Below, in pieces: positions 28,006-32,036 of a DNA stretch of 32,036 nt (within the stretch, counting starts at the first letter, position 1; each line of letters opens with the position of its first letter). Both the position numbers and the translations under genes were made by a program. The notes under the pieces are model-generated. The model was not told the DNA's origin. It saw nothing but the letters and a program-made list of their open reading frames with translations, and did no database searches. The stretch comes from Proteocatella sphenisci DSM 23131 (GTDB taxonomy: Bacteria; Bacillota; Clostridia; Peptostreptococcales; Filifactoraceae), in the NCBI RefSeq assembly GCF_000423525.1, contig NZ_AUID01000026.1, positions 1 through 32,036 on the forward strand. Direction: 5' to 3'.

Positions 28006-29244
28006 TCATCTTGACATAGAAGGAAGAACCATGATATCAGTTCGTTCTCTGGCGATATTTATATCTCCCATAAGCGAAGCAAAAGTTACCGATTTTTTGC
28101 CATAGCGTTTCCTCAGTTCATACATCACCTTTTCAGCTCTGTCAAATTTTTCATGCCTTTCATAATTCCCAAACAGATCCTGCTGCAAGGGTGCATTTTG
28201 ATCTGTAAGATTTATGGCAGATATGCTAAGCGCTCTCACAGGAATATCCCAAGTGTACCTTTTCTTGAAAAGGTCTATAGCTGCGTCTGTTATCTCTGAT
28301 GAACACTGCGTTGGCAAATCCAGTATGCACTGATATTGTCTGTCGGCAAATGATGAATCTCTTACAGTTATTTTTACTCCCGAGGCCTTAAGTTCATTGT
28401 CACGAAGCTTTTTGGAGACATCTTGACATAATTCCAGAAAAACCAGTTTTACTTCCTGATTATTTACAAGGTCTCTTATGCAAGTTATCCCGTGCCCTAT
28501 ACTTTTCACGGGCGGTCTGTATCCTGCTACCATAACATTTGATTCATCACGGCCATTAGCATGATTCCATATGTCTATTCCATTTTTTCCAAGAATCTGA
28601 ATTATAAAGCGAGGGTTCGCTTCTGCCAGATCTCCTATCGTAATTATGCCATACCTGCTTAATTTTGAATAGGTTGAGCCTCCCACTCCAAGAAGCTCCG
28701 AGGCTTTAAGTTTCCAAAGCTTTTTCTTGAAATCATCCATTTTTATCACACTTACTGCATCTGGCTTTTTCAGATCGCTCCCGAGTTTAGCAAATACCTT
28801 ATTAAAACTCACCCCTATCGATACCGTAATCCCGAGTTCTGTCTTTATTTTTTCTCTTATTTCATTTGCTATTTTTTCTCCGCCACCAAACAGACTTGTG
28901 CTTTCGCTACAGTCCAGCCAGCATTCATCCAGCCCAAAAGGTTCAACTCTGTCTGTATACCGATAATATATGTTTCGAGCCAGTCTGGAGTATTTCATGT
29001 ATTCTTCGTAATGAGGCTCTACCGTTATAAGCTGTGGGCACTTTATCATGGCCTGCCACACCGCTTCTCCAGTTTTAATTCCGTATTTCTTTGCCTCTTC
29101 AGACTTTGCAAGTACTATTCCGCGACGCTCTTCTACTGAGCCACACACCGCAAGCGGCTTTCCTCTCCACTGCGGATTTGTTATCAGTTCTATAGATGCA
29201 TAGCAGTTATTCATATCACAGTGCAATATGGTTCTTTCCATCAT
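28006..29244 (-). CDS. Y-family translesion DNA polymerase (DinB/UmuC type)
   Basis: The 412 residues contain Y-family catalytic carboxylates Asp10 (HCDMNNCY) and Asp106-Glu107 (GLDECWLD), the palm/finger/thumb region, and a C-terminal little-finger domain with a likely beta-clamp motif QQDLF at 354-358. Such enzymes copy damaged DNA with low fidelity. Tyr15 is at the steric-gate position. The form is nearer to the mobile-element UmuC/UvrX-like group of Firmicutes than to classical chromosomal DinB (inference). AGGAGG lies 8 bases before the first ATG. It is divergent from an XRE repressor gene whose predicted operators cover its promoter. Confidence 0.94.
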   Translation of the reverse strand: MMERTILHCDMNNCYASIELITNPQWRGKPLAVCGSVEERRGIVLAKSEEAKKYGIKTGEAVWQAMIKCPQLITVEPHYEEYMKYSRLARNIYYRYTDRVEPFGLDECWLDCSESTSLFGGGEKIANEIREKIKTELGITVSIGVSFNKVFAKLGSDLKKPDAVSVIKMDDFKKKLWKLKASELLGVGGSTYSKLSRYGIITIGDLAEANPRFIIQILGKNGIDIWNHANGRDESNVMVAGYRPPVKSIGHGITCIRDLVNNQEVKLVFLELCQDVSKKLRDNELKASGVKITVRDSSFADRQYQCILDLPTQCSSEITDAAIDLFKKRYTWDIPVRALSISAINLTDQNAPLQQDLFGNYERHEKFDRAEKVMYELRKRYGKKSVTFASLMGDINIARERTDIMVLPSMSR

Positions 29245-29257
29245 TTACGTTTCCTCC

Positions 29258-29286
29258 TTGACAAAAAGTGCAACATATAATATTCT
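29258..29286 (+). promoter_or_regulatory. Possible promoter of the repressor-protease operon
   Basis: TTGACA (29258-29263) and TATTCT (29281-29286) are 17 bases apart on the plus strand and contain a GTGCA repeat in the spacer. The leader would be about 100 bases. TTGCAC (29300-29305) with TATTTA (29322-29327) is a weaker alternative. Confidence 0.45.
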
Positions 29287-29378
29287 AAGTGTAAATAAAT
29301 TGCACTTTAGATCATTATAGGTATTTAAACTGCACCTGTCAAGATATTCAGTATATATAAGTGCAGTTGTTTTGCACC
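29266..29378. promoter_or_regulatory. Operator array: five RGTGCAR repeats
   Basis: GTGCA cores occur at 29268-29272 (+), 29301-29305 (-), 29331-29335 (-), 29361-29365 (+) and 29373-29377 (-). Their centres are 33, 30, 30 and 12 bases apart. Flanks agree with RGTGCAR. One lies in the polymerase -35/-10 spacer, one over its predicted start, one in its leader, and two just before the repressor ribosome binding site. They are the best candidates for binding by the adjacent XRE protein. Confidence 0.7.
29314..29342 (-). promoter_or_regulatory. Promoter of the Y-family polymerase gene
   Basis: On the minus strand a perfect TTGACA (29337-29342) and perfect TATAAT (29314-29319) are 17 bases apart. 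Such a strong promoter needs tight repression; an operator-like GGTGCAG sits inside the spacer. No LexA box (GAAC...GTTC) is present in 29245-29393. Confidence 0.85.
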
Positions 29379-29393
29379 AAAAAGGAGAGTACA

Positions 29394-29822
29394 ATGAAAT
29401 TCAGTGATAAACTGAGGGAACTTAGAAAAAAAACTAATTATACTCAGGCAGAAATGGCTGCAAACGCGGGTGTATCACTTCGAACGTATAAAAATTACGA
29501 ACTTGGAGAGAGCTATCCCAGAAAACGAGAAGTCTATTTTATCCTCGCTGATATATTAAACGTAGATGTCAACTATCTCCTGACCGAAAACGAAGAATTT
29601 GTTACCTCAGCAGGAGAGAATTACGGATATAACGGGCAAAAACAAGCCGAGAACATCATAACCGAGGTAGCTGGACTATTTGCAGGAGGAAAACTCTCTG
29701 AAAATGATAAAGATGCTGTAATGCAAGCGCTCCAGCAGATATACTGGGATTCAAAGAACGAGAATCGAAAATACGGCAAAAAGTTGGATACAGGGGGTGA
29801 GGGTGATGGCTCGCCTGAATAA
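29394..29822 (+). CDS. XRE-family transcriptional repressor (ImmR/Cro-CI type)
   Basis: From ATG at 29394-29396 (AAAGGAG 6 bases upstream) the product is 142 residues. Residues about 4-62 form a Cro/CI helix-turn-helix (LRELRKKTNYTQAEMAANAG, then SLRTYKNYELGES). The C-terminal part (GLFAGGKLSENDKDAVMQAL) resembles the tail of repressors paired with ImmA proteases. It probably represses itself and the divergent polymerase. Its last codons overlap the protease gene by 17 bases, the arrangement known from immR-immA pairs. The frame is open further upstream to 29361, but that start lacks a ribosome binding site. Confidence 0.92.
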   Translation: MKFSDKLRELRKKTNYTQAEMAANAGVSLRTYKNYELGESYPRKREVYFILADILNVDVNYLLTENEEFVTSAGENYGYNGQKQAENIITEVAGLFAGGKLSENDKDAVMQALQQIYWDSKNENRKYGKKLDTGGEGDGSPE

Positions 29823-30342
29823 AATAAAAAATACCGCGGAATCTCTCGTTAAAAAACATGCTACCCGTGAACCTGCAAAACTGGCAGAGCGACTTGGAAT
29901 TCATCTATACTACCTTAACGACCTGAAGGATATGCTTGGAATGTATACAGTTATAAACAAAAGAAGATCTATACTTGTAAACGCCTCTCTAAACAAGCGT
30001 CTAATAGAGCTTGTCATTGCACACGAAATAGGCCATGATAGACTTCACCAAAAAATATGCAAAGAATCTTCTTTTAGAGAATTCCAGGTCCTGGATGTGA
30101 CTTCCAGACCAGAATATGAAGCCAATGTATTTGCAGCGCATATTCTTATCGATGACCATAAACTAATCGGTCTTTTAAAAGAAGGTTATGATGTTCTTCA
30201 GATATCTTTGATAATGGATGTAAACGTAAATCTACTTCTTATAAAGCTCAATGAACTTAAAAGAGATGGCGCCAATTACAATATAAGTCATATCCCACCG
30301 GGGGATTTTTTAAAAAAAGTAAGCATTCATATGGAAAAATAA
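29806..30342 (+). CDS. ImmA/IrrE-type metalloprotease (COG2856)
   Basis: The 178 residues carry a zincin motif HEIGH at 73-77 (IAHEIGHDRLHQ) and a third-ligand region EYEANVFAAHIL with Glu103 or Glu105. Relatives (ImmA of ICEBs1, IrrE of Deinococcus) cleave a partner XRE repressor when DNA is damaged. ATG at 29806 behind GGGGGTGAGG is preferred over a GTG at 29797. It is translationally coupled to the repressor gene, so the repressor is its likely substrate. Confidence 0.92.
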   Translation: MARLNKIKNTAESLVKKHATREPAKLAERLGIHLYYLNDLKDMLGMYTVINKRRSILVNASLNKRLIELVIAHEIGHDRLHQKICKESSFREFQVLDVTSRPEYEANVFAAHILIDDHKLIGLLKEGYDVLQISLIMDVNVNLLLIKLNELKRDGANYNISHIPPGDFLKKVSIHMEK

Positions 30343-31758: not shown

Positions 31759-32036
31759 CTAAGTTAGCAACTGCTGCAGTCCTTTATTCAAAATATTAAC
31801 AGCTGCATTTTTATCACGTTGATGGTTCTCTCTGCAGATTGGACAAGTCCATTCTCTGATTTTCAGGTCTTTGACAAGCGAGTTTTTATAGCCACAACCT
31901 GAACATATCTGTGAACTTGCAAAATTTCGTGGTACAGAAACTACTGTCCTGCCATACCATTTTGCTTTATATTCAATCATTGATTTGAATCTACTCCAAC
32001 TGGCATCAGCTATACTTTTGGAAAGTTTTGTATTTT
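31759..32036 (-). CDS. tnpB: RNA-guided endonuclease TnpB, C-terminal part (truncated by window edge)
   Basis: The open frame enters from the right edge (reading [16 protein letters not shown]) and ends with TAG at 31759-31761; about 91 residues are visible. They hold the RuvC/zinc-ribbon end: [20 protein letters not shown] and CPIC cysteine pairs, and [13 protein letters not shown] with the third RuvC aspartate. TnpB is the Cas12 ancestor that cuts DNA next to a target-adjacent motif with a guide RNA from the element end. An internal ATG at 31980 is not the true start, because the homology continues upstream. Confidence 0.9.

Follow-up and report, generated by a model that had tools for sequence, protein, structure and literature searches.

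In Proteocatella sphenisci a Y-family translesion polymerase gene stands divergent from a gene for an XRE repressor, which in turn overlaps a gene for an M78 (ImmA/IrrE-type) zinc protease, and we consider it probable that the three make up a self-contained proteolytic switch for translesion synthesis, ImmR/ImmA-like in build and with the polymerase as its output. The ImmR/ImmA mechanism, standing in here for LexA, is the most likely way for it to work, and gene content and sequence place the system with the XRE-M78 pairs and not with ICE, the IrrE/DdrO regulon or the S24 systems. For the Clostridia at large we see about an even chance that control of one translesion-polymerase lineage has repeatedly shifted between two systems, the global LexA response and a private switch that is released by a protease, has mutually exclusive face-to-face promoters and is also found as a part of phages and conjugative elements, and that this genus, seemingly LexA-less, keeps it as its only proteolytic damage switch, so that it induces mutagenesis and not repair. 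If true, inducible mutagenesis could do without LexA in many anaerobes, including gut bacteria, and run through a zinc protease and a private repressor; a type of switch familiar from mobile elements would be connected with repair in the cell; and close relatives of a single polymerase, some governed by LexA and others by the switch, would offer a natural comparison. No description of the trio was found in the literature by title or abstract start, a scope outside which lie most subscription journals and bioRxiv preprints, and the words Xre and ImmA are absent from surveys of bacterial polymerases (PMC6511836 among them).

Locus layout and genomic setting

The window, by which we mean the whole 32,036-bp stretch of DNA analysed, is an entire contig of a 2.41-Mb draft genome that is 98.7% complete. 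Open reading frames and Pfam matches confirm the arrangement proposed by an earlier sequence-only reading, with the polymerase and XRE genes in divergent orientation and the XRE and M78 protease genes overlapping; all three genes are intact, and the overlap amounts to 17 or 26 nt, depending on the choice of start codon. The features of the locus are as follows.

28006-29244, minus strand: Y-family translesion polymerase, 412 aa (Pfam IMS, E 1.9e-42; IMS_C, 8.6e-20)
29253-29259, minus strand: ribosome-binding site of the polymerase gene, AAGGAGG
29258-29286, plus strand: XRE promoter, TTGACA-17-TATTCT
29268-29274: single half-site GTGCAAC in the XRE promoter spacer, by eye
29289-29305: candidate operator O1, dyad GTGTAAATAAATTGCAC, between the two -10 elements
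29314-29342, minus strand: polymerase promoter, TTGACA-17-TATAAT, facing the XRE promoter
29319-29335: weak candidate operator O2, AGGTATTTAAACTGCAC, inside the polymerase promoter, with one good half-site, by eye
29361-29377: candidate operator O3, dyad GTGCAGTTGTTTTGCAC, just ahead of the XRE ribosome-binding site
29381-29387, plus strand: ribosome-binding site of the XRE gene, AAAGGAG
29394-29822, plus strand: XRE repressor, 142 aa (Pfam HTH_19/HTH_3)
29679-29684, plus strand: F96-A97 codons in the LFAGG linker, predicted cleavage site (from conservation and likeness to the ImmR cut)
29797 (alternative ATG 29806)-30342, plus strand: M78 (ImmA/IrrE-type) zinc protease, 181 aa (Peptidase_M78, E 1.8e-10)
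31759-32034, running off the contig end: TnpB-like fragment (Cas12f1-like TNB domain, Pfam)

On one side the switch is neighboured by GNAT and LigB/AMMECR1 genes (Pfam), beyond which radical-SAM-like, RNA polymerase and ribosomal-protein genes were identified by reading translations, and on the other side by pepT (NCBIfam), whose apparent start at 30342 is an artefact, the sister gene beginning at the equivalent of 30414. The sister genome (G001, locus L023) carries polymerase, XRE, protease, pepT, GNAT and AMMECR1 genes side by side. Between the two genomes pN/pS is 0.17 for the polymerase, 0.16 for the XRE protein and 0.25 for the protease, with stops in none of the three; GNAT and pepT were left out of this comparison, the GNAT gene beside the trio having an in-frame stop in the sister draft assembly (L023:7786-8319) and the pepT query being out of frame.

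The sequence-only reading had taken the trio for a stand-alone chromosomal cassette with no integrase, structural or conjugation gene nearby. This stands for the genus, where the sister keeps the same GNAT, AMMECR1 and pepT neighbours and where a reading of the 32-kb contig (translations mostly by eye, Pfam on 7 proteins) turned up no integrase, transfer or phage structural gene. It has to be qualified at the contig end, where the TnpB-like fragment puts one mobile-element remnant near the switch, and it fails for the class, which takes in phages, a plasmid and a minority of loci with mobile-element matches: within the stretches retrieved, 6 of 36 trio loci matched recombinase or integrase queries, against 2 of 37 others (seven queries, named by eye).

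Facing promoters and candidate operators

The perfect polymerase promoter claimed from the sequence is present (TTGACA-17-TATAAT) and points at that of the XRE gene, with 84 bp between the -35 elements and 38 bp from the first base of one -10 element to that of the other. Sigma-A-like promoters pointing at each other occur in 39 of 40 trio gaps, compared with 1.2% of dinucleotide shuffles, and in 34 of these 39 facing pairs the -35 to -35 distance is 79-93 bp. RNA polymerase footprints would then overlap, and each transcript would cross the opposite promoter. Of 21 other XRE-protease loci 11 have facing promoters too, as do three gaps from phages and one from a plasmid; the presence of the geometry in loci without this polymerase makes it look general for the switch family. 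The 11 loci (L024, L026, L029, L031, L032, L058, L061, L063, L064, L066, L067) have 79-97 bp between -35 elements, and some adjoin recombinase or transfer genes. A facing promoter was absent from four loci with a co-directional polymerase (described below) and from L030, L033, L034 and L035; L065 and L070 yielded no promoter of any kind. The idea that the facing promoter is restricted to loci with a divergent target found no support, several loci that lack it having a divergent gene further off.

The shared operator-like repeats noticed earlier take the form of two exact 17-bp dyads, GTGYA-N7-TRCAC, within the 149-bp gap (O1 and O3). Only 3 exact sites occur in the 2.41-Mb genome, two of them in this gap, while the reversed control pattern has five; the third has no repair gene seen adjoining it and no neighbours with an evident repair role, by eye. 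The dyad is absent from the recA promoter, so that an operator common to a regulon with recA, as in IrrE/DdrO, was not found. With one mismatch allowed there is no clear excess within the window (4 matches, 1.77 expected, 11 of 100 shuffles reaching 4), and what supports the dyad is therefore the presence of two exact sites in a single gap of 149 bp. By eye, the 17-bp dyad is also found in L023, L060, L024 and L058.

Repeated 7-mers in the window gap exceed those in dinucleotide shuffles (p 0.02). Across the 40 trio gaps we counted 382 direct and 398 inverted 7-mer pairs against 87 and 82 expected, the inverted total being inflated by the facing TTGACA boxes, which count as repeats; the excess reaches p<=0.05 in 30 gaps and is lacking in 10, L060 included (p 0.27). 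Peaks lie between the promoters, in the polymerase -35 region and near the XRE start, so that at the level of sequence repeats cover both divergent promoters, as in an ImmR/ImmA-type pair. One fixed operator length for the whole class was considered and rejected: perfect dyads over the 40 gaps number 5 at 17 bp (3.7 expected), 14 at 18 bp (3.0 expected) and 15 at 24 bp (3.1 expected).

Repressor and protease

The adjoining XRE and M78 genes, the latter with an HEXXH motif, have the make-up of an ImmR/ImmA-type pair. In an AlphaFold2 model (pLDDT 86.6) the repressor consists of an HTH domain and two C-terminal helices, 65-97 and 103-127, and F96-A97-G-G of the LFAGG sequence ends the first of these and opens the linker to the second. 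All of 42 repressors have G98 and G99, and F96 and A97 each occur in at least 90% of them. ICEBs1 ImmR is cut at F95-M96, in the linker joining two predicted helices (PMC8960796), and we predict cleavage here at or next to F96-A97. The best solved-structure profile match of the repressor is the ImmR DNA-binding domain (E 9.4e-13), DdrO (6jq1) matching at E 3e-8 over the HTH part only; a Foldseek search with the repressor model returned no match at E 0.001 or better.

The catalytic motif ascribed to the protease is borne out as HEIGH at residues 76-80, and H76, E77, H80 and E106 are invariant across 40 proteases. The structure model of the protease has a pLDDT of 88.2, and the protease profile matches IrrE (3dte) at E 3e-6; it is the only PF06114 match found in the genome. 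Of Pfam domains, M78 alone was above cut-off on its 181 aa, with no GAF-like domain.

Distribution of the trio

A search of other genomes for the same divergent trio, proposed in advance as a check, showed it to be conserved and present in many anaerobic bacteria. Within the order, 64 of 297 genomes hold a protease relative at E <=0.001, and among 39 stretches around the better protease matches it turned up in G205 and G116, from two other families, which makes four genomes of the order with the trio (loci: the window, L023, L060 and L068). We also scanned an 84,980-species collection with an alignment of four trio-bearing polymerases; local profiles assigned the best 80 of 545 confirmed loci to 36 with the divergent trio, 37 without and 7 with less than 1.5 kb upstream and no trio. 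These 80 were chosen by likeness to the four trio-bearing polymerases, so that 36 of 80 overstates the general rate, and the rows include near-copies (L085/L086, L101/L108). Trio carriers include Oscillospiraceae, Lachnospiraceae, Peptoniphilaceae and a Desulfosporosinus, and among them is a cultured, non-pathogenic strain, Hespellia stercorisuis DSM 15480 (L096); the near-identity of L085 and L086, in two families, is a sign of recent transfer.

Mobile elements carry the same layout. Nine of the 10 nearest phage polymerase records (of 93 matches), several of them near-identical, hold the protease divergently; the repressor was read in three of the nine and confirmed by Pfam in two, and the tenth record, PV036438, has an annotated transcriptional repressor at that place. 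The trio is also present on a Monoglobus plasmid record.

A distant Y-family polymerase comes after the XRE-protease pair, in the same direction, in four genomes (G019, G252, G050, G003); in the three loci that the window protein matched, it is 24-26% identical to the window polymerase. The four loci are L025, L027, L028 and L062; for the gene that follows the L025 polymerase, neither Pfam nor NCBIfam gave a match. The same kind of XRE-protease pair also occurs in loci with no polymerase nearby. Four family members without a strong LexA match (G010, G009, G006 and G002; loci L030, L033, L034 and L035) have the pair and no polymerase seen adjoining it.

LexA and LexA boxes

As the sequence-only reading had stated, there is no LexA box in the divergent gap, the best fit to GAAC-N4-GTTC having 2 mismatches. 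The case for LexA independence is stronger than could be known from the locus. Neither this genome (14 candidates scored) nor the sister (88% complete) gave a match to the LexA DNA-binding domain, this genome yielded no S24 peptidase, the self-cleaving domain of S24 systems (5 candidates scored), and polymerase relatives tend to carry one mark or the other, trio or LexA box. Of the broader claim, a self-contained switch independent of LexA, both the conservation of the trio and the LexA independence held up, and the chromosomal setting did not hold for the class.

Some LexA domain match is present in 50 of 59 relatives, and in 45 it falls under E 1e-10. Three LexA-bearing family members have GAAC-N4-GTTC in their recA promoters (G005, GAACTTATGTTC; G008, GAACAAACGTTC; G004, GAACATACGTTC), whereas the recA promoters of this genome and its sister have no LexA box. 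A fourth member, G007, has a LexA match (E 6e-12) yet no LexA box at recA (L171), so that box and gene are not in perfect step; this is perhaps a case of stepwise SOS loss in the family. An XRE-protease-polymerase arrangement occurs in 4 of the 14 relatives without a LexA match under E 1e-10 (G000, G001, G003, G050) and in 1 of the 45 with one (G019; Fisher p 0.009), a count made by hand on small numbers of related rows that we treat as a lead only.

Among the polymerase loci, 17 of 37 without the trio have an exact GAAC-N4-GTTC in the 220 bp ahead of the polymerase gene (0.06 expected), but only 2 of 40 trio loci do (0.12 expected; Fisher p 3e-5); 2 of 5 short loci examined have one as well. 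With one mismatch allowed the counts come closer (20 of 37 against 8 of 40, with 2.3 and 2.7 expected), which locates the contrast in the exact sites; these expectations are from single-base and not dinucleotide shuffles. L060 and L131 combine the trio with an exact LexA box, 20 of the 37 non-trio loci have neither, and in L122 and L125 a lexA-type gene lies just upstream (by Pfam for L122). When the 59 rows labelled as either trio or LexA box are placed on a quick tree of 84 polymerases, a minimum of 7 changes is required; scoring the trio against everything else raises the number to 16, 6 of them forced by well-supported branches. The window itself belongs to a supported group of 20 rows, among them 8 LexA-box and 7 trio loci. 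To judge from these sequences, the pattern of LexA box and trio is one of repeated regulatory swap on one polymerase lineage.

Proposed mechanism and alternatives

At rest, a dimer of the XRE repressor would sit on dyads overlapping the two face-to-face promoters, holding the strong polymerase promoter shut and setting its own level; the promoters stand so close that RNA polymerase should not hold both, which would make the choice nearly all-or-none. Stress, probably DNA damage or replication arrest, would act as the trigger, and the M78 protease of the same operon would cut the repressor in the stretch between its two C-terminal helices, at F96-A97 or close by. The cut repressor would leave the DNA and the polymerase would be made.

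The trio could instead be the leftover immunity region of a prophage or ICE, its polymerase the first early gene left behind and its switch without a present role. Such a descent would fit the divergent layout shared by nine of the 10 nearest phage records (of 93) and the plasmid, the 11 of 21 further XRE-protease loci with facing promoters, some of them next to recombinase or transfer genes, and the TnpB-like fragment at the contig end. We nevertheless regard it as improbable, given that in both genus genomes the trio has the same chromosomal surroundings, is free of stops and shows pN/pS of 0.16-0.25, and that in the window (translations read by eye, Pfam on 7 proteins) neither an integrase nor a phage structural gene could be recognised; a phage origin is, moreover, compatible with present function. 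It also seems unlikely that the switch, working as described, senses zinc, redox or starvation and not DNA damage, with the polymerase serving general stress-induced mutagenesis. The anatomy of the locus identifies no signal, and cleavage of DdrO by IrrE has been linked to zinc availability and oxidative stress (PMC8072749, PMC7907104), but the LexA boxes at 17 of 37 non-trio relatives of the polymerase point to damage as the usual cue, and ICEBs1 ImmA acts upon launch of the DNA damage response (PMC8960796). That the pair is a toxin-antitoxin-like COG2856-Xre module, with the polymerase a neighbour by chance, we hold to be very improbable: COG2856-Xre pairs have been listed as toxin-antitoxin-like (PMC2701414), and an antitoxin model is among the weak NCBIfam matches, yet the divergent polymerase recurs in 36 of the best 80 loci with fixed promoter geometry, and a second kind of Y-family polymerase follows the XRE-protease pair in four genomes.

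Comparison with known systems

The nearest likeness to the proposed damage switch is with ImmR/ImmA of ICEBs1 (Bacillus subtilis), where an XRE repressor and M78 protease are counter-transcribed to the controlled promoter and six ImmR sites span both promoters (PMC8960796), and where the ImmR cut site lies in an inter-helix linker, as LFAGG does in our model. The output differs, being excision and transfer there and a translesion polymerase here, where no element genes were recognised around the switch in this genus. In Deinococcus an M78 protease, IrrE, which has a GAF-like domain, inactivates DdrO, an XRE repressor of repair genes (PMC8072749); the protease here is a protein of 181 aa, and the operator appears private to one locus and is not found at recA. 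FddR of Francisella is a co-opted phage-type repressor that acts on itself and divergent genes after DNA damage, the canonical SOS response not being induced, through an operator GTG-N11-CAC (PMC13148647); FddR is itself an S24 peptidase, whereas in this locus the two functions lie in separate proteins, and the family is a different one. Acinetobacter, likewise LexA-less, has in UmuDAb a dedicated repressor over error-prone polymerases (PMC7273328, PMC11332147). UmuDAb derives from UmuD, in contrast to the XRE/M78 pair of this locus. In lactococci a phage-type repressor, HdiR, adjoins a umuC-like gene, and unlike the XRE/M78 pair HdiR is self-cleaving.

Polymerase group and adjoining genes

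The best NCBIfam model for the polymerase, the sole PF00817 gene found in the genome, is PRK03103 (YqjW/UvrX group), at 343.6 bits and thus under its 381 cut-off. A rule of co-occurrence with YolD has been described for this group (PMC6511836); YolD (PF08863) has no match in this genome and 1 weak match in 11 family genomes. Small genes of 80-85 aa with a W-DG/Y-EIDRV-type look in common adjoin polymerase relatives in L084, L093, L102, L122 and L125; that of L122, the single one of the set scanned, has no Pfam match and may encode a polymerase partner. In the trio of Helcococcus massiliensis (L140:6001-8401) two polymerase genes lie in tandem.
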